A stretch of 64,000 nucleotides of DNA from Prosopocoilus inquinatus (Eukaryota; Arthropoda; Insecta; Coleoptera; Lucanidae): contig CM069874.1 in NCBI GenBank assembly GCA_036172665.1, forward strand, positions 26,619,946-26,683,945. Reading direction: 5' to 3'. Of the stretch, positions 5,390 through 58,008 are shown piece after piece (position 1 is the first letter of the stretch; each line of letters begins with the position of its first letter). The notes under the pieces were generated by a model. It saw only the letters and a list, made by a program, of their open reading frames with translations, did no database searches and was not told the origin of the DNA. Position numbers and translations under genes: made by a program.

Positions 5390-6650
5390 GGCAACCAATG
5401 GTAGAAGCTTTGAATTGTAAAAATTATGATGCGTGGAAGATACATACGGAGACATTTTTGATAAATAATGATGTATGGAAATAGCACGAATGTAAAACCA
5501 GAAGGTGGAGCATTATTACAACAGGCACACGATTTATGGACTGCAAATGATCGGAAAACCTAGTCGGACATTTTGCTTTCAATTAGTTCCTCGGAGTTGA
5601 AGCAAATCAAAGGCGACATCACGTGACCCGCACTGAAAGTCACACTGCCCAGACAATTAATACCCCATCGAAATGGAAGGCACGAAAGCGAAGACGTTGA
5701 CATCTTCGCAAGATTTTTGATTTAGTGGATAAACTTGGTGAATTATGTAGATATTGGCGCAGAATTATTGGCGACATTAGTATTGCACAGTCTTCCGCTG
5801 AATTTTGAAAATTTTTATTATGTAATTGAATGGAGGGATGAATTACGGTTACCCGAAATTTTGCCTGTCAAATTAATAGAGTAGCAAAAATCGGTACCTC
5901 AAAAAGAAATAAATCTTGGATATTCGAACTGAATTTAAATGCAAGCGTCACCGTTCATTGTATGTTTTTCATGGAAATTCTAGAGATGACGGAGAGAAGA
6001 TACTTTATTCAAACAAAGCGAGCATCAAGAGACTAACTGAAGAAAATACGTGAACGTAACAAGGCATGTTTGCTTAAGAAGGTACTGTATGGTCTTCGCC
6101 AGGCTAGTCTTCAGTGGTACAAGAGTCTCTATCATGAGTTACAGCAACTTGGTCTCACTCCATCGACGTCAGACCCGCGTGTCTACTTTCATGATCAAAG
6201 GAGAGATTTAGTTTTTGTCATTGTTTATGTTGACGACATACTGATAGCTTCACGAATTTTAGAGAAAATAGTCAACCTGAAAAAGGAATTCGTAAGTTAT
6301 TTTGAAATCAAAGATCTCGGTGAAATAACTAGGGACAGACTTTATACGTTACAAAAGTGGTTATTCAATTCACCAAAAAAAAAGTTTATTGAAGAAGTTC
6401 TAAATCGTATCGGAATGAATGGAAGCCAGTCTCAACACCAATGTGTACAGTTACAGAATCGTGTCAAACAAGTAAATCGAATGTCAAGAATGCTGAAAGT
6501 GTTCCATATCGCGTACTTATTGGTTCTCTAATGTACCTTGCTTTAGGCACTAGACCTCACATATCAGATGCGGTGAGTTATCTGAGTCATTTTAATGATT
6601 GCTACCAACAAGTTCATTGCCTTGCGGCAATTTTTTCCCCAAATTGTGCA
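5390..6650 (+). pseudogene. Copia gag-pol remnant (gag then reverse transcriptase)
   Basis: Two blocks of a Ty1/copia polyprotein remain. From about 5400 to 5930 broken frames give gag (WKIHTETFLINND, then a block at 5750-5885 with LPLNFENFYYVIEWRDEL). From 6070 to 6650 there is reverse transcriptase: VLYGLRQASLQWY, the catalytic FVIVYVDDILIAS motif (YVDD near 6228) and, after a frameshift at about 6440-6530, the YRVLIGSLMYLALGTRPHIS block. Protease, integrase and RNase H are missing, so a large internal deletion joins gag to the polymerase. There are several in-frame stops. The gag block resembles the gag of the element at 25.2-26.2 kb, so the two are probably related families. Confidence 0.8.
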
Positions 6651-6673: not shown

Positions 6674-6783
6674 TGCTGCAATTCTAACCTTGATCGTAAG
6701 CATGGTAAGGTACAATCCAGCCATTTAAAAACACTGGCCGTAAGTAGCTTACGATGCTTACGATCAAGCTTAGAATTGCAGTA
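6674..6783. repeat. Short foldback element with 30-bp arms
   Basis: Arms at 6674-6703 and 6754-6783 are inverted copies (TGCAATTCTAACCTTGATCG against its complement with few changes), 50 bases apart. It lies at the broken 3' end of the copia remnant. The arm faintly resembles the CTGCAATGTTAGGTC part of the ribozyme element next to it, but not enough to claim descent. Confidence 0.5.
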
Positions 6784-7014
6784 TAAAAGACGAAACTTTT
6801 TCCCCGTTAAATAAACATTGTAATTTGATGAACAAATAAAAGAGCGACATCTTACTATCGCTTTTTGACCTAACATTGCAGTAGGATAGACAAATTGAAG
6901 CGGGATTTGCTCCTAATGAGTCCCCCATGCAAGGCGGCCATGCTTGCTGTCAAAGCATAATGAAAGATTTTAGAAAAATTTTGTGCAAATCGTTTTTGAT
7001 TGCAGTGAGAACCT

Positions 7015-7077
7015 CGAGCAGCCTCTGGACAGCTGTTTCAGCCCTGCTTGGGGCTTCTTCAGCAGAAACGTAGCTCG
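7015..7077 (-). ncRNA. Type-I hammerhead ribozyme, copy 1a
   Basis: Read on the minus strand, the 63 nt contain in order: stem I outer arm CGAGC, loop, inner arm UCUG; core CUGAAGA; stem II AGCCC-CAAGCA-GGGCU; core GAAAC; short stem III ACAGCUGU (two base pairs with an AGCU loop, or a palindrome pairing in trans); cleavage triplet GUC; then CAGA and GCUCG closing stem I. Every conserved hammerhead residue is present. Beyond stem I the flanks keep pairing (CACUGCA on both sides), giving a long rod. Confidence 0.85.
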
Positions 7078-7445
7078 ACATTCCCACTGCAGACCAAAAA
7101 CGACTTGCCCAATTTATTCGCAAATGCGATGTAAGAATGATGAACAAATAAAAGAGCGACATCTTACTATCGCTTTTTGACCTAACATTGCAGTAGGATA
7201 GACAAATTGAAGCGGGATTTGCTCCTAATGAGTCCCCCATGCAAGGCGGCCATGCTTGCTGTCAAAGCATAATGAAAGATTCATGGGGGACTCATTAGGA
7301 GCAAATCCCGCTTCAATTTGTCTATCCTACTGCAATGTTAGGTCAAAAAGCGATAGTAAGATGTCGCTCTTTTATTTGTTCATCATTCTTACATCGCATT
7401 TGCGAATAAATTGGGCAAGTCGTTTTTGGTCTGCAGTGGGAATGT

Positions 7446-7508
7446 CGAGCTACGTTTCTGCTGAAGAAGCCCCAAGCAGGGCTGAAACAGCTGTCCAGAG
7501 GCTGCTCG
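7446..7508 (+). ncRNA. Type-I hammerhead ribozyme, copy 1b
   Basis: Same 63-nt sequence as the minus-strand copy at 7015-7077, here on the plus strand. CUGAAGA starts at 7461, the GGGCU/GAAAC junction is near 7480 and GUC ends at 7495. It is 312 bp upstream of the next plus-strand copy, so a transcript through both would have two cut sites and release a monomer of 312 nt (inference). Confidence 0.85.
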
Positions 7509-7757
7509 AGGTTCTCACTGCAATCAAAAACGATTTGCACAAAATTTTTCTAAAATCTTTCATTATGCTTTGACAGCAAGCATGGCCGCCTTGCATGGGG
7601 GACTCATTAGGAGCAAATCCCGCTTCAATTTGTCTATCCTACTGCAATGTTAGGTCAAAAAGCGATAGTAAGATGTCGCTCTTTTATTTGTTCATCATTC
7701 TTACATCGCATTTGCGAATAAATTGGGCAAGTCGTTTTTGGTCTGCAGTGGGAATGT

Positions 7758-7820
7758 CGAGCTACGTTTCTGCTGAAGAAGCCCCAAGCAGGGCTGAAAC
7801 AGCTGTCCAGAGGCTGCTCG
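7758..7820 (+). ncRNA. Type-I hammerhead ribozyme, copy 1c
   Basis: Identical in its conserved positions to copy 1b, with CUGAAGA at 7773. The unit ends 46 bases later at the right target duplication, so this copy is close to the element's edge. Confidence 0.85.
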
Positions 7821-7878
7821 AGGTTCTCACTGCAATCAAAAACGATTTGCACAAAATTTTTCTAAAATTGTAATTTGA

Positions 7879-9430
7879 ATAAGAAGCAAGTTCCCTGAAG
7901 TGGACAACTTATTCTGGACAGTCTGTATATCATTAATTTAATGATGTACCAAGTGCAACGCCGCAAGTAGGCGCACACGGTTGTTTCAGATGTCGTCCAA
8001 TGAATTTTTTCACTAAAAATAGATTTATATGTTTAAACATCTCTCACAAATTGTGATTTGTGAGAGATGTTTTAGATCCTCTTTAGTTAATTAACGGTAT
8101 TTCTTATGTAGGTAATAAGACTACAATTTGTTCAGTGTTTCTCGCTTATTCCGTTTAGAAATTTCTCTGTAAAACATAGCACTCAGAATGCAATTGGAAT
8201 GAAATTTAAAAATGTGACAAATTTCGAGTACTTATATCGAAAATAATTTATCAAAATTTCTCCCTAATTTTCAGTTATCATTTTTTAGTTATTTTATAAT
8301 AAGTGTACAAAAAATTTTCCCATCCAGTATCTTGCTGTAATTTTTTTGGCATGTTCATGTATGTTCCGTACTTAATCTGTACCCTAACCAGACCAGTAAC
8401 CAATTGTACCAACATTTTGCAAAATGTTATTAATGTATGTCACAGTAGAGTAAACATGCCAAAATATTAGAGCACCTTTTTGTATACTTGTTATTTACGC
8501 CCTTTTAAAGAAGTAGATATACTCGAGGCTGAAATCCAGTGAACAAAGAAAATTGTTTTTGTTTGAAACAGAGCTCTGATATTTCATAGTATGTCATAAC
8601 CAACCAGGCTATTCGTATTTGAATTAAAAAGCAGCCGCAATATATACTTTCAAACAGGATAATATCGATGACGAGAAAAAAACTATTCATAAACCTGCAG
8701 GCAATACAGAAAATTTGAGCCCGGGAGGGCAATAATTACGATCTGCATTTTGAATTGATACCTTTGACATACATACCTATATGCGCATTTACTAAGCGAC
8801 AACGAAGCCGTAGCTGCATTAAAAAAAAACCTAAAAATAATTTTTTAAAAATTCAAGTAACTTTTTCATGTTTGGAGAAAATGTTTGCATAATAATAAAT
8901 TGAAATTTATATGTTTCAATATATATAAACAAAATCTTATTTTTCTTTCAATTTTGTTTCGTATTTTAGAGTTATTCACAAAGAACTGCTTTCAGAATAA
9001 TTTTATGTAACAAGGATATTAAACTTGGTAATGAAAAATTAGGAATTAATTAAAAACGAATCAATACATTCCATACTGCTGATGTGTAAAGGAAGTTGTT
9101 CTTCATTTGTATGCACAAATAAAAGTAAATGTAAATACGTTTTCGAATAGAACGGAACTTCAAACTTGATTTCATGAATTAAACAACACAGAGTAAAATA
9201 AATAGCTACATAAATTCGAAAAGAATTCAATTTGTTATTGTTATCTGGAAACTCCGCGGCAAATAAATATTGAATAGTTTCGAACGGAGCCTCGGACGCT
9301 GAAACTTTTATAAACACGGAAGAGCAATATCGCTGTTATTCTTTCGCGAGATTTGTGAAGGAACGGCGTCGCTCGCAAAATATACACAAAATTGCAAAAC
9401 GCTGTTTGCAGAAATACGTCCGAACCGACT
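7879..9430. other. No recognisable gene; one perfect small hairpin
   Basis: AT-rich DNA. The only structure I see is a perfect 16-bp inverted repeat, AAACATCTCTCACAAA at 8035-8050 and its complement at 8057-8072, with a 6-base loop. At 40 bases it is shorter than a typical microRNA precursor and could be a tiny foldback remnant. Confidence 0.5.
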
Positions 9431-14779: not shown

Positions 14780-14943
14780 AAATTTTGTTGCAAATCGATT
14801 TTGATTGCAGTGAAATCCTCTAGCAGCCTCTGTACAGCTGCTTCAGCCCTTTTGGGGCTTCTTTAGCAGAAATATAGCTAGAGATTTACACTGCAATGTT
14901 AGGTCAAAAAGTGATCGTAGAGTGTCACAGTTTTATCTATTCA
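14780..14943. mobile_element. Hammerhead element, short 164-bp form, locus 2
   Basis: This copy has the same two ends as the larger ribozyme elements, AAATTTTGTTGCAAATCG at the left and ..TTTTATCTATTCA at the right, but a single ribozyme region and no inverted duplication. It is flanked by a 13-bp direct repeat TTTCAATTTTATG (14767-14779 and 14944-14956). The ribozyme (minus strand) is followed by the CACTGCAATGTTAGGTC segment and the end hairpin. It looks like the basic monomer of the family, or a deletion product. Confidence 0.8.
14820..14881 (-). ncRNA. Hammerhead ribozyme relic
   Basis: Layout as in the intact copies, but the core reads CUAAAGA for CUGAAGA and GAAGC for GAAAC, and the cleavage triplet is GUA. 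Two core changes should make it inactive. Confidence 0.75.
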
Positions 14944-15249
14944 TTTCAATTTTATGGTTCTATTTTGGAAAACTACCATTGCCAGTTGATAATTATTTAT
15001 TTTCTCATTAAGAAATAAAGAAATTTAAATGACAAGATCTTCTTTCTGTTGCGGGTGCCTTAGAATTTTTTCCATAGTCATTTGGACCTTATTTAAAATT
15101 CAATCTGCTTTCGCCACCTCCTGCAATGTCCACACCTTCAGATTCTTCTGCTAATACTACGGTTCTTCAAATCTGCTTCGTTTTTTTTTAAATCTGGGTG
15201 ATCCGTTTTATAATAATTAAATGCCTTTACTATTGCTCGTTTAGTTGTT

Positions 15250-25236: not shown

Positions 25237-26201
25237 GAATGGAACGCTGAAGATAGAACCGTTAAAAAAACAATTACGACACATGGAAACTCCAGATGGA
25301 AGCCCTTTTAATTAAAAACGATGCTTGGTCTTATGTTAATAGGCAATGTAAACAACCAGAACTTATGTCAGGTGATGACAGATCGGCCAAAGCCGTGGAA
25401 TTATAGATCAGAAACGATGCGAAGGCAAAATCAGATAAAATTTTATCTATTTGTCCATCAGAATTAAAACAAATAAAACGTTGTAATACATCTCGGGAGG
25501 TTTGGTTAAAATTGAAACGTACCTACATATATGAATCAAAGGATCAAAGGGGCCTGCGAAGAAAGCAAGAAAATAAGGACGTACGCGAGCACTTGAACAA
25601 ATTTTTTGACGCTGTGGATAAGCTGCAGGAAATGGAAGTAGAAATTAATTCTGATTTGTTGGCGATTATGTTATACAGTTTGCCCTCCAGCTTTGAAAAC
25701 TTTCGATGTGCCATCGAATTTCGCGACGAGTTGCCGAATCCAGACATTCTTAGGGCGAAGATACTTGAAGAAAGTGATGCTCGGAATAATAGCATTCGCA
25801 ACACATGTCAAGAAGCTATGGCAGTGTATAAAAGTGGTGTTCGTCATCGACAGAATTTTGAGAAACATTCTAATCATGAGAATGCAAACTGTGACAAAAC
25901 ATTCAAATTTCGCTGTCATAGATGTCGGAAAATCGGTCATAAAGTAGCGGATTGTAAACTCAAATGGACACCTAAATCAAAACCGAAGATTAGGGCTAGT
26001 GCGTCTTTTCACACTTGTAATGTAACTTTTGATGGGAACTGGTGTTTGGACAGTGGTGCTACATCGCATTTCTGTAAAGACATTGACATTTTCATTGAAA
26101 TTTATGAAAACTCTTGCGGAAGATTGAAATTAGGTACAGAAACAGCCTCTACTGAAATCAAAGCTAGTGGAACTGTGAAATTAATTGCAGATGTTTTTTG
26201 A
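25237..26201 (+). pseudogene. Copia gag and protease start
   Basis: Gag reads from about 25237 with a 1-base insertion in an A run near 25265 and an in-frame TAG near 25404, then stays open from 25512 to 26201. Seen in order: WKLQMEALLIKNDAW, VWLKLKRTY, LPSSFENFRCAIEFRDELP, a zinc knuckle CHRCRKIGHKVADC (C-X2-C-X4-H-X4-C, near 25917), and the protease active site WCLDSGATSHFC (near 26041). The frame stops at 26201 inside the protease. Gag packages the RNA and the aspartic protease cuts the polyprotein; this copy cannot make either whole. Confidence 0.9.
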
Positions 26202-26295
26202 AATAATACAAATATTACTCTGCGAGATACTCTTCATGTTCCCGATTTACGAACTAATCTGTTATCCATAGCTAAGATTACTAATAACGGCTATA

Positions 26296-27126
26296 ATGTT
26301 ATTTTCAAGAAAAATATGGCACTGTAAACCAAAAAATGGCAGCATAGAATTTGTAGCTGATCGAATTGGCGATATATACTATGTGCGTGAAGCGCTGAAT
26401 CCAACAGAAAATTCTCTACTTTCTATGGAAAAATGGCACCGACGCCTTCGTCATTTAAATACACGTGATCTTGATGCAGTGCGAAATGAAAATGTAATTG
26501 GAGTGGAAGTCGAAAAATCAGCAAATGAACTGATATGTGATGTTTGTTTACGTGGAAAAATGGTCCGGACACCTTTTCCAAAGAAATCGACACGGAGTGA
26601 CGTTTTTGATGTTGCTAACGGCACGGAATTTGAGAATGAAATATTTGAAAGTTTCTTGAAATAAAAAGGAATCACAAAAAGGTTGACGGTACCATACAAT
26701 CCGGAACAGAATGGTGTCTCAGAACGAAAGAATCCTACGCTTCTTGACATGGCACGTTGTCTGCTAATACAATCGAAGTTGCCTCGTAAGTTTTAGGCTG
26801 AAGCCGTGAATACAGCCAATTATATTCGAAATCGCTGTTCATCGAAGGCTTTAAATGGCAAAACCCCGTATGCATTGTGGAATGGAAAGAAATCGAATGT
26901 CAGTAATCTTAAAGAATTTGGTTGTCAAGTTTTATGGCTAAATCGTAATCCGAAGAAAGGTAAATTTGAATCGAGATGCAGGGAAGGAATATTCTTGGGT
27001 TATTCCGAAGAGTCCACGGGTTACCGAGTGTGGTTACGTGAAGATAAGAAAGTTGAAGTTACTCGAGACGTGAAATTTAGGGAAGATGTCAAAAATGAAA
27101 TTGATGAATTTCTAGATTTCTTTTGA
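26296..27126 (+). pseudogene. Copia integrase, internally deleted
   Basis: The zinc-binding pre-integrase domain is present (HRRLRHLNTRDLDAV, later CDVCLRGKM). After KKSTRSDVFD the sequence jumps to NGTEFENEIFES, so about a hundred residues with the first catalytic Asp are missing. A stop at 26662 follows. The next block has the catalytic-Glu motif PYNPEQNGVSERKN (near 26695), a stop near 26794, and then the C-terminal part (NTANYIRNRC, GCQVLWLN, GYRVWL) up to the stop at 27126. Confidence 0.85.
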
Positions 27127-27958: not shown

Positions 27959-28126
27959 ACAGTTGGGGAAATAGAAAGCGGGACAGTAAACTTTCGTTAG
28001 TTTAAACCTTACTTCTAAATTTCGGTAACTATGGTAATTTATCAACCTTCACATTAAGTAAAATGATTAATCATTCCGTTTATAAAAAAAATTTGTACAA
28101 ATCGTTTTTGATTGCAGCGAAAACCT

Positions 28127-28189
28127 CGAGCAGCCTCTGTACAGCTGTTTCAGCCCTGCTTGGGGCCTCTTCAGCAGAGACATAGCTCG
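28127..28189 (-). ncRNA. Type-I hammerhead ribozyme, copy 3a
   Basis: Core CUGAAGA and GAAAC intact; stem II begins GGCCC so its first pair is G-U; triplet GUA, which hammerheads can still cleave. Confidence 0.75.
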
Positions 28190-28437
28190 ACATTCCCACT
28201 GCAAACAAAAACGACTTGTCCAATTTATTAGCAATTGCGATGTAAGAGTGATGAACAGATAAAATAGCGACATCTAATGATCGCTTTTTGATCTGACATT
28301 GCAGTAGGATAGACAAATTGAAGCGGGATTTGCTCCTAATAAGTCCCCCATGCAAGGCGGCCGTGCTTGCTGTCAAAGAATAATGAAAGTTTTTAAAAAA
28401 AATTTGTGCAAATCGTTTTTGATTGCAGCGAAAACCT

Positions 28438-28500
28438 CGAGCAGCCTCTGCACAGCTGTTTCAGCCCTGCTTGGGGCTTCTTCAGCAGAGACGTAACTCG
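28438..28500 (-). ncRNA. Hammerhead ribozyme, copy 3b, blocked cleavage site
   Basis: Core and stem II intact, but the triplet is GUG. Position 17 should not be G, so self-cleavage is expected to be lost. The outer stem I arm is CGAGU. Confidence 0.75.
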
Positions 28501-28570
28501 ACATTTCCACTGCAAACAAAAACGACTTGTCCAATTTATTCGCAATTGCGATGTTTTTGTTTGCAGTGGG

Positions 28571-28628
28571 AACGTCTCTGCTGAAGAAGCCCCAAGCAGG
28601 GCTGAAACAGCTGTATAGAGGCTGCTCG
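28571..28628 (+). ncRNA. Hammerhead ribozyme, copy 3c, stem I truncated
   Basis: Plus strand: CUGAAGA at 28581, intact stem II and GAAAC, triplet GUA. The CGAGCTAC part of stem I has been deleted on the 5' side, leaving only the inner pairs. Confidence 0.7.
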
Positions 28629-28841
28629 AGGTTTTCGCTGCAATCAAAAACGATTTGCACAAAATTGTTTTAAAAACTTTCATTATTCTTTGACAGCAAG
28701 CACGGCCGCCTTGCATTGGGGACTTATTAGGAGCAAATCCCGCTTCAATTTCTCTATCCTACTGCAATGTCAAAAAGCGATCGTAAGATTATTTTATCTG
28801 TTCATTTCGTTTATAATTAAAAATTATAACGAACAAATACC

Positions 28842-29299: not shown

Positions 29300-30175
29300 T
29301 GTTACTTACTAACGAATGGGTGCGGTACCTACTAATGCTGATTCGTGTGTTTTTCGATTAGAGAAGGAAAACGTTTGTTGGAATTTATATACACGATATT
29401 TTAATTCTGTCATCCAACGACGAAATTTTCTTCGGAAATAGGACGCAAACTTTCGAAAGAATTGGAAATGAAATATCTCGGTGAAGTAACCTATTGCTTA
29501 GGTATTGAATTTTTGAAAAACGGGAACAGTAATCATTTGAGCCAAAAGGGATATATAACTGACATTCTCAAACGCTTTTACATGTCAGATTGTAAACCGG
29601 TATCTATTCCATGGGTAACTGGTACCAAATTAGAGGGAAATGTTGATGAACACGAAAACACTAAAAAATTACCCTACCTTAAATTAATTGGCGCCTTGAA
29701 TTATTTAGCTGTGACAACTCATCCTGATATTAGTTTTGTTGTGAGTTATCTAAATCAATTTAATCATTGCTATGTCAAGACACATTGGATAGCCGCTAAA
29801 AGAGTGTTACGATATCTTAAAGAAACGATATCAACTTCAATTTGCTATACACCAGATAGTAATCCTTTGATTGGTTTTGTGGATGCCGACTGGGGAAGTT
29901 GCCTTGATGACCGCAGATCGTACACTAATTACGTGTTCGTTTTAAATGGAGGACCCATTTCTTGGGAATCGAAGAAACAGAAAATCGTAGCTCTATCATC
30001 CGCAGAAGCTGAATATATGGGAATGACTGAAGCAACTAAAGAATTAATTTATTTGCAGAAGTATATATTGGAATTGAATCAAGAAAAGTTGAAGAATGTG
30101 GATATTTACACAGACAATCAAAATGCTTTGAAGCTCGCAAAAAAACTTCTTTTCACAATCGTAGTAAGCACATAG
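29300..30175 (+). pseudogene. Copia reverse transcriptase C-part and RNase H
   Basis: After a broken stretch that should carry the catalytic YVDD (only IY then DILILSS-like codons in different frames remain near 29380-29415), an open frame from 29462 gives ELEMKYLGEV, the LIGALNYLAVTTHPDISF block, RVLRYLK and the RNase H domain. Seen in RNase H: GFVDADWGSC (first Asp), ALSSAEAEYMG (Glu), and YTDNQNALKLA (Asp). It ends at 30175 by frameshift; the usual HIDI..FIRE tail follows in other frames to about 30300. A near-complete RNase H contrasts with the broken polymerase. Confidence 0.88.
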
Positions 30176-36457: not shown

Positions 36458-37256
36458 ATTAGAAATTTTCGGAATGAAATCGCTGAAATCAAATGTGGTA
36501 TGTGATACACGCTAGCTCCGCCTTCGGGCCTAGTGCAAGAGGGGCGAATTCGCACATTCATTCTCCCGATTTAGTGACAGATGAAGAGTATGAGTGAGAG
36601 CGAATGCGTTTCAGTGCGTGTATGAGTGAAACACAGAATACACGCACCGTAAACACACGAACGCTACCGAGCGCTGCCAGAAAATAATTCTACAAAGATT
36701 TCTCTTTTCAGAGTCGTGCTTTTTGGTAAATTTTTTTACGGTACATTGAAAGAAACATTTTTGTCATAATAAACTTCTGCAAATCTGGTAGTCATGCACT
36801 TAATTAGTTTTAAAAAGGGGATGTTCAATATTTTGCTCAATATTTTGTTATTTATTTGTGTACACATTTACCTTGACATCATTAAAAATGCCTGTTAATG
36901 CATGTAATTAATATTATGTGATAACACAGGAATAAACAATAAGTAAAATGGGTCGGTGATGTAACATTTTGAATATCAAGTTCACCCAAATAGTGAAACG
37001 GAACTGCGTCAAATAATTTTTGTTTCTACACAACTAATTGAATAAAATATAAATACTTGATGAATACGAGGATTCAGATCTCATCAACTGTAACCTAATC
37101 TACAACCACGGTTTCAAATTTGTAAGTGCATCTGCAGTATACGATATTTTTAAACATTCGTCAAGCATCTCAAAAAAAAAAAATTAAAAGCTTGTTTTTG
37201 ATCCTGTTAATATTAACTTTCTGGTGATAATAGTGCGGCCATTTTGAATCATATTG
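36458..37256. other. No gene; short GC-richer stretch
   Basis: 36500-36680 is richer in GC with many TGAGTG/GAGCG words and no open frame. It could be a solo LTR or promoter-like remnant. The rest is AT-rich. Confidence 0.35.
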
Positions 37257-37258
37257 TA

Positions 37259-37592
37259 CTACACACTAAAAGAATCTGGAACACGTAATACGTTCTGTTG
37301 TAAATACGAGGAGTTAATTATTGTTGCTATCATGTATTCGTCCGTTTGTTTATTTCCGTGTTTTTTAAGTTTCTCTAGAAACAAGTTTAAAGTTGCATTC
37401 AAACTAATAGCGTTTTCCACTGGCTGCACTAGTGCGCACTGAGTGTATTTCCAACTCGTTTCAGCTTTATGTAATAAAACGAGATGGAGATACACTCAGT
37501 GCATACCGGTGCAGCCAGCAGAAAACGCTATAATAAAATAACTCAAATATGTATGCACAACAATTGTCTCAATTTTTTTTTAGTGGACATAG
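37259..37592. mobile_element. TA-flanked MITE carrying a nested MITE
   Basis: Diverged relative of 13555-13738: ctggaacacgtaatacgtt and gcattcaaactaata match ctgggacatgtaatacgtc and gcattgaaactaata there. TA at 37257-37258 and 37593-37594. Part of the length difference is the insertion at 37408-37530. Confidence 0.65.
37408..37530. mobile_element. 123-bp palindromic MITE, TAA target duplication
   Basis: Almost a perfect hairpin: TAGCGTTTTCCACTGGCTGC against its complement, arms near 55 bp around a short loop. TAA occurs on both sides (37405-37407 and 37531-37533). Removing the element and one TAA restores the text of the empty relative at 13675-13690 exactly (aaactaataaaataa). A 3-bp TWA duplication is the mark of PIF/Harbinger elements. 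Confidence 0.8.
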
Positions 37593-38083
37593 TACAGTTA
37601 GATATTATATGGCATTATATAATATGGAATCTTGCAGAGCAGATTTCAAATACAGATCTATTTCAGAATTGTCACCAGATTATCAGAAAGAGGTTTCAAC
37701 TGTCCAGATCGATCAGGATCGTTATTTTAATTTTCTTTTAAAGCCAGTATAGGCAGCATATGTTCTAAATGAAAATATTTTAACTTCGGCTTCATTTTAT
37801 GCCAAAAATTGTCATCTTTTTTAATCTGAAAAAGAAAACGTATTACAGGTGTGTTGTAAATGTAAATTGTTGTTATTTTTTCTAAAATCGTCTATAATTT
37901 CTATTTTATACACTAGTCTTCAAAACCAAATCGGTTTTACTTATTTTATTGTCAAAATAATAGCTTTCGTGTGCTTAAAAGTTGAAACTATTACAAAAAT
38001 AATCTTATAAGATTTCAGAAAAAAATAATGTATTATGATGAATTCAGAACTTTCTTGACGTTTATGTAAATAACATTACTTGT

Positions 38084-43830: not shown

Positions 43831-43844
43831 GTATTTTATTTACA

Positions 43845-44106
43845 AAAATTTTGTGCAAATCGTTTTTGATTGCAGTGAGAACCTCGAGCAGCCTCTGGAC
43901 AGCTGTTTCAGCCCTGCTTGGGGCTTCTTCAGCAGAAACGTAGCTCGACATTCCCACTGCAGACCAAAAACGACTTGCCCAATTTATTTGCAAATGCGAT
44001 GTAAGAATGATGAACATATAAAATAGCGACATCTTACTATCGCTTTTTTTTTTTTTTTTGTTAGGTCAAAAAGCGATAGTAAGATGTCGCTATTTTATAT
44101 GTTCAT
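43845..44106. mobile_element. Hammerhead-ribozyme element, locus 4
   Basis: One full minus ribozyme unit, then a T run at 44044-44060 and only the plus-strand end segment (ttaggtcaaaaagcgatagt ... atgttcat). A 13-bp exact repeat TATTTTATTTACA flanks it (43832-43844 and 44107-44119). The two GCGATAGTAAGATGTCGC end pieces face each other across the T run. Confidence 0.85.
43885..43947 (-). ncRNA. Type-I hammerhead ribozyme, copy 4
   Basis: All 63 nt agree with the locus-1 copies: CUGAAGA, stem II AGCCC/GGGCU, GAAAC, triplet GUC, both halves of stem I. It should be able to fold and cleave. Confidence 0.85.
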
Positions 44107-44602
44107 TATTTTATTTACATTAAAAAGTTGGGTTAATTTGATTGACAGATATGGCAAATATATGACTAGTAAGAATTTGCCGCTTTCATTTAATACGTCA
44201 ATATTTGGCATACCGAGCACGCCACGTAAGGTACCTTCCAAGGCTTACTTTACAGAAACAGTTTTTTTTTGTAAATTGGAACGGCCATATAAACGTCAAG
44301 CTTATTGATAAAATTGGCCCTGGTTTGGCGTACTTTTTGGAACTTTCATGCAGCTGCATCGAAAGATTCCAGCTTGAAACGCTGTGTCAGCTTTCTTGTA
44401 CTGCGCAACAAAATGAGACATGGTGCCGTGTTTCACAGTTCATATTTCACAACTGCATGAAATCTCACAAGTGAGTTATCATGTTACAATAGGTATATTC
44501 TTTTTACCGCAAAATTCAGAGTAACTCAGCGGCACTCGGTAACCTTGGAAATTTGTATGTTTTTTTACACTCTCGTTGGTGAGGTTTGGTGAGATTTTAG
44601 GC

Positions 44603-54600: not shown

Positions 54601-54733
54601 ATAATTTATATTAAATAATTAATTTAGTTAAAATAAAATACAAAGAAAATAAGTCACAAACAAAAACATAATATATATGCATAATTTGTTAGAAAAAATT
54701 TGTGCAAATCGTTTCTGATTGCAGTGAGAACCT

Positions 54734-54796
54734 CGAGCAGCCTCTGGACAGCTGTTTCAGCCCTGCTTGGGGCTTCTTCAGCAGAAACGTAGCTCG
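54734..54796 (-). ncRNA. Type-I hammerhead ribozyme, copy 5a
   Basis: All conserved positions intact with GUC; same 63-nt sequence as the locus-1 and locus-4 copies. Confidence 0.85.
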
Positions 54797-54904
54797 ACAT
54801 TCCCACTGCAGACCAAAAACGACTTGCCCAATTTATTCGCAATTGCGATGTAAGAGTGATGAACATATAAAATAGCGATAGTTTTTGGTCTGCAGTGGGA
54901 ACGT

Positions 54905-54967
54905 CGAGCTACGTTTCTGGTGAAAAAGCCCCAAGCAGGGCTGAAACAGCTGTCCAGAGGCTGCTCG
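54905..54967 (+). ncRNA. Hammerhead ribozyme, copy 5b, core mutated
   Basis: The first core word reads GGUGAAAA where CUGAAGA is needed, so activity should be lost. Stem I, stem II, GAAAC and GUC remain. Confidence 0.75.
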
Positions 54968-55502
54968 AGGTTCTCACTGCAATCAAAAACGATTTGCACA
55001 AATTTTTTCTAAAATCTTTCATTATGCTTTGACAGCAAGCATGGCCGCCTTGCATGGGGGACTCATTAGGAGCAAATCCCGCTTCAATTTGTCTATCCTA
55101 CTGCAATGTTAGGTCAAAAAGCGATAGTAAGATGTCGCTATTTTATATGTTCATAATTTGTTACTTTATTGATTGATTCAAGTTTCATTCTTCGATATTT
55201 AAACTTACCATCTACACAAATTATCGGAACAAATTTATACAGGATGGTAATTCATGTGTAAAATTAAAATATCACCGAATTTTGTTAATAAACGTACTGA
55301 TTTTGCCAATTTAAATGATACTTAATGATAAATACATTTTGTAGTTTTCTGGATTTATTAAATAAAATGTAGATAAAAAAGTTAGTTCTTTATCTTTATG
55401 TTTCTCCGGATTTGGCATTTAATATTTAAAAAAAAATCATATTACCTTTTTGTTTTTCCTGACAACTTGTTCTCTTGACAACTTGTTTATTTATTTTTCT
55501 TC

Positions 55503-55545: not shown

Positions 55546-55703
55546 GTGATCTTTTCAATTTCAATTGTATCCGGTTAAAAACTGTTTTCTTGTAAAATTA
55601 AAAGTAATATTTTGTAACATGTAAAGTTGTACGTTTAAATAAAAGTAACCTTATAATTGTAAAAGAAATTTGTTGCAAATCGTTTACTTTGCAGTAAAAA
55701 CCT

Positions 55704-55766
55704 CGAGCAGCCTCTGTACAGCTGTTTCAGCCCTGCTTGGTGCTTCGTCAGCAGAAACGTAGCTCG
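55704..55766 (-). ncRNA. Hammerhead ribozyme, copy 6a
   Basis: Core CUGACGA (position 7 is free) and GAAAC; stem II has one mismatch (AGCACC); triplet GUA, still cleavable in principle. Confidence 0.72.
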
Positions 55767-55927
55767 ACATTCCCACTGCAAACAAAAACGACTTGTCCAA
55801 TTTATTCGCAATTGCGATGTAAGAGTGATGAACAGATAAAACAGCGATATTTTACGCTCGCTTTTTGACCTGACATTGACAATTGCGAATAAATTGGACA
55901 GGTCGTTTTTGTTTGCAGCGGGAATGT

Positions 55928-55990
55928 CGAGCTACATCTCTGCTGACGAAGCCCTAAACAGGGCTGAAACAGCTGTGCAGAGGCTGCTCG
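55928..55990 (+). ncRNA. Hammerhead ribozyme, copy 6b, blocked cleavage site
   Basis: CUGACGA, perfect stem II with loop UAAACA, GAAAC, but triplet GUG, which should not cleave. Confidence 0.72.
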
Positions 55991-56314
55991 AGGTTTTCAC
56001 TGCAATCAAAAACGATTTGCAACAAATTTTTTTTTAAACTTTCATTATGCTTTGGCAGCAAGCATGGCCGCCGTGCATGGGGGACTTATTAGGAGAAAAT
56101 CCGCTTCAATTTGTCTAACCTAAGGCAATGTCAGGTCAAAAAGCGAGCGTAAAATGTCGCCGTTTTATCTGCTTATAATTGTAATAAAAAGGGAATCTTA
56201 TAATTATGTTAAAAATGTAATTTTCTAATTATAATAAAATAAAAGATAACATAAAATAATTATAATAAAAGTAATCTTACCTCTTTCTCAGTGTAATCTT
56301 AATATACAATGTCA

Positions 56315-57149: not shown

Positions 57150-57448
57150 TTATATAAACAATTCGTCTAGTGAAAAATAATCGAATACATTCTTTACGAG
57201 AGATAAAACAGCAGTACCGGCCGTTTTTTCTGCCAAAGGCCTTATTTCTTCAATCACTTCTTTCGCGTTGTCATTCAATATTTCATTGGTTCTCTTAGTT
57301 AACTCCGGATTATTCCTGAAAAGGTCATCAAATCGAAACTTGCCGTTCTCTACATCTAAATGATAATCGATGGTTTCGAAAGAAATGTACTCTTTTCCAT
57401 TTTTCTGTCTTCTAGTACCAGGGAATGTCATCGTAGCTCTGGCGTTCG
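57150..57448 (-). CDS. takeout/JHBP-like protein, C-terminal exon
   Basis: Minus strand, the last ~98 residues of a takeout/juvenile-hormone-binding-like protein (DUF233/JHBP family), small secreted lipid-carrier proteins of insects acting in hormone transport, feeding or chemosensation. The block GTRRQKNGKEYISFETIDYH, then FRFDDLFRNNPELTKRTNEI and the final ALSLVKNVFDYFSLDELF-like helix, follow the family's usual C-terminus, including the short tail after the last helix. The exon starts after an acceptor tttgattccag (57449-57459) with two bases finishing a split codon, and ends with a stop at 57150. Earlier exons (signal peptide, lipid-binding core) must lie at higher coordinates on this strand. 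I do not see them before the window ends, so they are in a distant position or lost. No stop or frameshift interrupts this exon. Confidence 0.85.
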
Positions 57449-57518
57449 CTGGAATCAAAATATAAAAAAGTAAGTTATTGGAATCTCTCTCGCTTGTTTG
57501 TAGGTTAAATTTAAGAAA

Positions 57519-58008
57519 GTCTCACTGCAAAGAATTTTAATTTCACAATAGCAGCCACTGTGGTTTTGTCAGTTGCGACATTGGGGTCTATTCTGTAACA
57601 TTGATATGGACTTGATATTGCTACGTTTCAAGTGACCTTGCAAAATTGGTATTTTGTAAATAGTTTCTAAATAACTTACAATCCGTTTCAAGTGTGATCT
57701 CGAGTTAATATGCATCTCTATTCAATTTGCGGTCGGCAATCGACGTGAAATGTTATGAAATAGTAACAAATTCTCTTCAATTATTGAAGATCATATCAAT
57801 TGATATGCATATCAATGTTACAGGATAGCCCTGATTATCAAGCAAAAGTTCAATATGAGACAAAGAGGAACGTTATGGCGCAATGAACAAGACAAGAAGA
57901 TAACTTCACGTTCTCCTTTGCCCTATCTTGAACTTTTGCCTGACAATGTCGTAACTGACCGAACCGCGGTTGCTGCTATTGTGAAATTAAAATTCTTTTT
58001 AGTGAGAA
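57519..58008. repeat. Foldback MITE just upstream of the takeout-like exon
   Basis: TCACAATAGCAGCCACTGTG at 57541 is mirrored by the complement at 57965-57990, flanked by AAAGAATTTTAATT on both arms and starting TCTCACT on both. Inner pairs (ctgtaacattgatatg and its complement near 57810) and another hairpin (gcaaaagttca near 57842 against tgaacttttgc near 57930) show nested folding. It lies in the intron before the exon. No coding content. Confidence 0.75.

Follow-up and report, generated by a model that had tools for sequence, protein, structure and literature searches.

Divergent hammerhead retrozyme insertions with two fixed outer ends in Prosopocoilus inquinatus, probably made by Penelope-type two-strand, two-site target priming

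The genome of the beetle Prosopocoilus inquinatus carries a 312-nt repeat with a predicted hammerhead ribozyme, and most of its insertions in our sample consist of two arms that point outwards from a centre and end at two fixed places of the unit, here called A and B. From its sequence, the element appears to be a non-autonomous type-I hammerhead retrozyme of an insect, and we consider it probable that it is moved by the machinery of Penelope-like elements (PLEs) via two-strand, two-site target priming. This reading is built on what the DNA itself displays, i.e., the layout, the fixed ends, the duplications, the centres that differ, and a PLE family of this genome that follows the same rule. 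The initial annotation had taken the head-to-head layout as the mark of a special element. The evidence is that each stretch represents one insertion event with two cDNA arms, and PLE copies are likewise inverted (PMC3846280); on the best reading, the layout is the usual insertion product of the retrozyme and not a new kind of array.

The window, i.e., the whole stretch of 64 kb that was analysed, contains a first copy at 6829-7866 (1038 bp), built of the 312-nt unit (GC 43.6%) in two outward-pointing arms, with about 1.46 antisense units followed by about 1.88 sense units. Both the exact 312-bp period and the central inversion, noticed in the initial annotation, were confirmed, the arms being 100% identical to the unit throughout and in opposite orientation. 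The unit-matching stretches extend over 6826-7281 (left) and 7282-7868 (right), and trimming of the 12-bp duplications gives the limits used here. The features of this copy are the following:

6817-6828, no strand: left target-site duplication, ATTGTAATTTGA, 12 bp
6829-7281, minus strand: antisense arm, outer end at site B (unit phase ~104)
7014-7078, minus strand: hammerhead, predicted cleavage 3' of GUC at 7028
7282-7866, plus strand: sense arm, outer end at site A (unit phase ~275)
7445-7509, plus strand: hammerhead, predicted cleavage after 7495
7757-7821, plus strand: hammerhead, predicted cleavage after 7807
7867-7878, no strand: right target-site duplication, ATTGTAATTTGA, 12 bp

The two hammerheads of the sense arm (7445-7509 and 7757-7821) would together release a 312-nt monomer. 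That ribozymes lie on both strands of a single insertion, as had been claimed, holds with the one at 7014-7078 on the minus strand and these two on the plus strand. A hammerhead had also been announced for each unit: direct reading gives the motif as described (CUGAAGA core, 5-bp stem II, GAAAC, GUC, and a stem I with internal loops), and it is found three times in about 3.3 units, not in every fragment.

The ribozyme is predicted to be a type-I hammerhead with a short stem III on the sense strand of the unit, and the antisense strand of the unit is without the same core pattern. Rfam, to which the initial annotation had looked for confirmation, did not provide it: at the gathering threshold there is no match over the 64-kb window, and at E ≤ 10 the sole hammerhead model found in window 6700-8000 is HH9, with 14.5 bits against a gathering score of 52. 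With scores below threshold, Rfam was set aside as judge of the ribozyme, and a descriptor combining the core and the stems was taken instead. This descriptor gave 8 matches in the window versus 3 in 200 dinucleotide shuffles combined. Among 58 sources including the window, with overlapping loci counted twice, 116 matches fall inside unit-bearing stretches and 0 outside. Blast retrieved 103 ribozyme copies, 99 of them without length change, and among these each fixed core residue is kept in at least 98; the residue at the cleavage site (position 17) is C in 86, A in 11, and G in 2. Conservation hardly differs between the core and the remainder of the 65 nt (0.981 vs 0.977), which show next to no covariation. 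By descriptor and core residues, the unit carries one of the features of a retrozyme, a type-I hammerhead with a conserved core, here as a predicted ribozyme, which supports its earlier placement among repeats of the animal retrozyme kind. At least two intact ribozymes in one arm, predicted to be able to release a full monomer, are present in 16 of 51 stretches. Simple patterns detected neither Pol III boxes nor a TATA box in the unit.

Blast of the unit against the window revealed six insertions, all divergent, antisense then sense. The five further ones had escaped the initial annotation, as had the duplications and the fixed ends:

14780-14944, minus then plus strand: second insertion, shorter and more diverged, ends A/B, 13-bp duplication TTTCAATTTTATG
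28080-28805, minus then plus strand: third insertion, ends A/B, duplication TCATTCCGTTTATAA / TCATTTCGTTTATAA (one mismatch)
43839-44110, minus then plus strand: fourth insertion, ends A/B, 13-bp duplication TATTTTATTTACA
54689-55158, minus then plus strand: fifth insertion, ends A/B, 12-bp duplication CATAATTTGTTA
55656-56180, minus then plus strand: sixth insertion, ends A/B, 13-bp duplication CTTATAATTGTAA

The unit was also searched as DNA in the whole genome (649.6 Mb, 173 contigs), which gave at least 111 matches, with 40 of 386 candidates scored. The annotated set, composed of the window and loci L001-L051 of the same genome, holds 60 distinct unit-bearing stretches. Three rows repeating insertions in segmental copies (C15:1906307, C15:3345430, C5:32941028) and six stretches lying 20 bp or less from a locus end were left out, and 51 unique, uncut stretches were kept; 42 come from search loci or their flanks, 6 from the window, and 3 from random DNA, and the search favours full-unit copies. 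Contig C15 (4 Mb) carries the same insertions as C6, mirrored (L021/L022 and L023/L024), as would be expected of an inverted duplicate or haplotig covering part of C6. The strand order is minus-plus in 39 of the 51 stretches, plus alone in 6, minus alone in 4, minus-plus-plus in 1, minus-minus in 1, and plus-minus in none. Identity of the arms to the unit ranges from 78 to 100%, and the longest insertion (L043, 1579-3703, 2125 bp) contains seven ribozyme copies and a 13-bp duplication.

Twelve of the 51 stretches are not minus-plus by the blast criterion. In three of these (L026, L032, L033), an A-end piece of 11-15 nt lies on the missing side, the background for such short pieces being some 10-nt unit match in 31 of 400 random segments. 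The two rows of L031 seem to stem from a single insertion interrupted by a repeat: one at window 36598-37669, without long frames, is also found inside the L031 stretch (~590-2005) with 81-92% identity, and seems to part it into these rows. L015 and L046 seem to be genuinely one-armed. In ten random pieces of 10 kb (5 among the 51 loci) there are five unit-bearing stretches in all, two of which are minus-plus with A/B ends by the blast criterion; in one of the other three, L057, a short antisense B-like piece adjoins the arm by eye. The fit to the minus-plus order is poorer in random DNA than in the searched loci. From the rate in 100 kb of random DNA, the genome total can be extrapolated, very roughly, to about 30,000 unit-bearing stretches.

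The outer ends of the arms are restricted to two places. One A end and one B end were found in 35 of the 39 minus-plus stretches, split 20 to 15 between the two orientations; the other four comprise one with two A ends (L011, with palindromic flanks), one with two B ends (L030), and two with one other end. Where both ends are at A or B (37 stretches), one of each is present in 35 (binomial P 5e-9 at even odds), the A window (phase 255-292) and the B window (phase 85-115) having been chosen after seeing the data. The observed A ends spread over phases 266-290 and the B ends over 94-113, with 142/170 nt of the unit between the two sites. Comparison of the sequence upstream of A with that upstream of B revealed no likeness beyond that of shuffles, 136 of 1000 of which attained the score, and no 70-mer of an A or B end was encountered outside annotated insertions among the loci examined. 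No common poly(A) tail was seen by eye at the ends of the 35 insertions.

These insertions are flanked by duplications. A duplication score of at least 8.5 is reached by 34 of 35 insertions versus 3.6% of 659 controls with mismatched flanks, and an exact duplication of at least 10 bp is present in 21 of 35 versus 2.0% of controls; under a laxer rule (at least 9 bp, one mismatch), 35% of controls also pass. The called lengths are 9-21 bp, some with one mismatch, and 25 of 35 are at 12-15 bp. Microhomology between target and RNA, although higher than in permuted pairs (mean 1.9 vs 0.55 at A and 1.4 vs 0.64 at B), was set aside because it is partly a by-product of how the duplications are called.

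The centres, on the other hand, are all different in the 35 A/B insertions. The inner breakpoints do not depart from a uniform distribution (KS p 0.77 and 0.25). At the centre, 23 of 35 insertions have bases that both arms can claim, in 14 of them 1-3 bases. The varied inner ends and the different centres thus suggest that the arms were joined at insertion, starting from two fixed places of the RNA, and they argue against an inverted element that existed beforehand.

The longest arm measures 1435 nt, i.e., 4.6 units, and arms of more than one unit call for a circular or multimeric template. A circular RNA appears plausible from the arm length, the strong predicted circular fold (z -7.0, 60 shuffles), and the published relatives; few places of this predicted circle are less paired than the A window (rank 7 of 312), while B is moderate (rank 61). 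Rare variants are common to sister arms in 18 of 336 cases, to units of one arm in 6 of 216, and to different insertions in 140 of 43,853. Thus, sister arms share variants about as often as units within one arm and far more often than different insertions, while 318 of the 336 rare variants are private to one sister arm. A nearest-neighbour test, in which the sister arm was nearest for only 11 of 68, was set aside, blurred by young and short arms.

The retrozyme loci contain 232 open frames of at least 85 aa. Domains were searched in 55 of them, and RVT_1 was found in 6, GIY-YIG in 1, and an APE-type endonuclease in 1. Three open frames over the retrozyme arms have no Pfam match at 0.001, and neither RT nor GIY-YIG at 0.1. 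A genome-wide search for GIY-YIG, with 150 of 2232 candidates scored, mostly of one young family, led to PLE coding sequence such as the match C1:57803626, which lies in a 788-aa open frame with RVT_1 within the 475 codons before it. Among these 150, neighbouring matches no more than 12 kb apart are minus-plus in 47 of 48 pairs and minus-minus in one, and 55 of the 150 have no scored neighbour within 12 kb. Three small PLE pairs all have one short outer end and one that is 38 nt longer, with duplications of 12, 13, and 11 bp. Of the 44 remaining pairs, 30 were examined at their end windows, which gave 29 with a short and a tailed end and a duplication, and one that was not classifiable, so that the rule of one short and one tailed end applies to 32 of the 33 pairs examined. 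A duplication score of at least 8.5 is found in 29 of 29 classified pairs versus 1.8% of 566 controls. The autonomous element, with divergent pairs having one short and one tailed end, thus obeys the end rule of the retrozyme, and this shared signature, on which the link between the two rests, suggests that they are moved in the same way. The PLE arm also carries a hammerhead-like core, and there is no sequence likeness between the retrozyme A/B ends and the PLE ends. At the PLE centres, the open frames have equal lengths on both arms in 11 of 47 pairs versus 0.33 expected by permutation. This excess of mirror symmetry may mean that some PLE inserts were self-primed and that the joining step differs from that of the retrozyme, whose centres lack it.

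We propose that sense transcripts of an arm with two ribozymes would cut themselves into 312-nt monomers, probably then ligated into rod-like circles. A Penelope-like RT/GIY-YIG enzyme would cut both strands of an AT-rich target with a stagger of about 12-15 bp, and each of the 3' ends so released would prime reverse transcription on the RNA, one at A (~275) and the other at B (~105). The two cDNAs would run inwards, the long ones making repeated rounds of the template, and end at places that vary; they would then be joined, 14 of the 35 junctions having 1-3 bases in common. The product would have divergent arms that end at A on one side and at B on the other, a centre of its own, and a duplication. 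Circularity, use of the PLE protein, and priming of both strands on one RNA are what we infer here. Going further, a dimeric Penelope-type RT/endonuclease could hold one circular hammerhead RNA at two dedicated sites, each subunit cutting one strand and starting its own cDNA, and this could be how retrozymes and PLEs alike normally insert, an extension for which we see the chances as evenly balanced.

Metazoan non-LTR retrozymes are described as tandem repeats by Cervera and de la Peña (2020; PMC7229834), who leave their partner and mechanism open, with PLE a strong but unproven candidate. The text of PMC7761336 also leaves the question open, stating that the repeats show no motif telling the partner, and that of PMC11722881 holds that animal retrozymes must depend on LINEs or PLEs for their movement. 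The element described here shares with them the type-I hammerhead, the size (312 bp within the reported 150-450 bp), a GC content below 50%, duplications of more than 4 bp, a strongly self-paired predicted circle, and the presence in the same genome of a PLE with a hammerhead-like core. It differs by its divergent arms with two fixed outer ends: repeats are head-to-tail within the long arms (up to 1435 nt), whereas 39 of 51 stretches, taken as whole insertions, have the head-to-head layout. Titles and the openings of abstracts, together with passages of PMC7229834 and PMC7761336, yielded no report of head-to-head retrozyme insertions.

For PLEs, PMC3846280 reports copies that lie head-to-head in inverted orientation, one end of which may bear a 31-bp tail; duplications of 8-10 bp accompany some copies and are absent from others. 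A purified lizard PLE, predicted to dimerise, cleaves and extends both strands of its target, prefers AT-rich DNA, and starts at two adjacent RNA sites matching the genomic tail (PMC11167929). The likeness to the retrozyme thus covers the head-to-head copies, the short duplications in many copies, two alternative ends, AT-rich targets and, presumably for the retrozyme, cutting and extension of both strands. On the other hand, PLEs encode RT and GIY-YIG, neither of which was found in three frames over the retrozyme arms, and their two sites are 38 nt apart versus 142/170 nt on the retrozyme unit, whose centres show no excess of symmetry.

LINE-type machinery could also prime on two strands, by twin priming, the likeness to PLE being then a coincidence. 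Human L1 does so in 18-22% of insertions, with cDNAs from both target ends in opposite orientation and a median duplication of 13 bp (PMC12016303); moreover, frames with RVT_1 and APE-type endonuclease are present in this genome, and two RT frames have PDB matches to chains of LINE-1 ORF2 and R2. We nevertheless find this rather unlikely. In PMC12016303, inversions are a minority outcome for L1 and reach 0.02% for Alu, against 39 of 51 minus-plus retrozyme stretches, the commonest outcome in our sample, and L1 breakpoints spread over the 3' part with peaks, while both outer sites of the retrozyme are fixed. The retrozyme insertions show neither the varying second priming site of L1 twin priming nor, by eye at the ends of the 35, a common poly(A) tail. 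The one LINE 3' region compared has no likeness to A or B, and the PLE of the same genome shows the same end rule. Inverted arms could also arise by snap-back, a single cDNA folding back and copying itself, as proposed for the head-to-head copies of rotifer PLEs (PMC3846280) and in line with the symmetric pairs in excess among the PLE centres of this genome. For the retrozyme this is very unlikely: it would predict like ends, against one A and one B in 35 of 37 insertions, and the inner phases lie within 20 nt of each other in 4 of 35, where 4.6 are expected if uniform. A stable head-to-head element moving whole, either a foldback DNA transposon or an inverted RNA template, is suggested by the composite look of a single locus and is highly improbable, as all 35 centres differ and the termini are different sites of the unit, not inverted repeats of one another. 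An assembly artefact, which had been named as a possible refutation, or an inverted duplication of a satellite could be imagined from the 100% identity of the first copy and the palindromic flanks of L011, and we give it hardly any credence for a family whose divergent layout recurs at 35 sites with A/B ends, their own duplications, different junctions, and arm identities of 78-100% to the unit.

If two-ended, two-site rolling-circle target priming is indeed the usual route of retrozymes and PLEs, it leaves a fingerprint in the genomic copies of both. The two-end signature common to the retrozyme and a local PLE offers a sequence test, applicable to other genomes, of how animal retrozymes return to DNA and with whose enzymes. 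The genomic insertions match the in vitro result for one lizard PLE, with two strands and two start sites, and they suggest that inverted hammerhead arrays be checked first as insertion products.

The phage and viral collections gave no match. Fragments of copia-type LTR retrotransposons (RVT_2, gag, gag_pre-integrs, Pol_BBD) lie at window 6037-6528, 25407-26661, and 29405-30172, and frames with a double jelly roll-like domain (PF21738) lie near retrozyme insertions at L012 2781-3311 (plus strand) and L022 2-604 (minus strand). Finally, an open frame at window 57153-57521 (minus strand) matches the haemolymph juvenile hormone binding protein (JHBP, E 1.2e-24).
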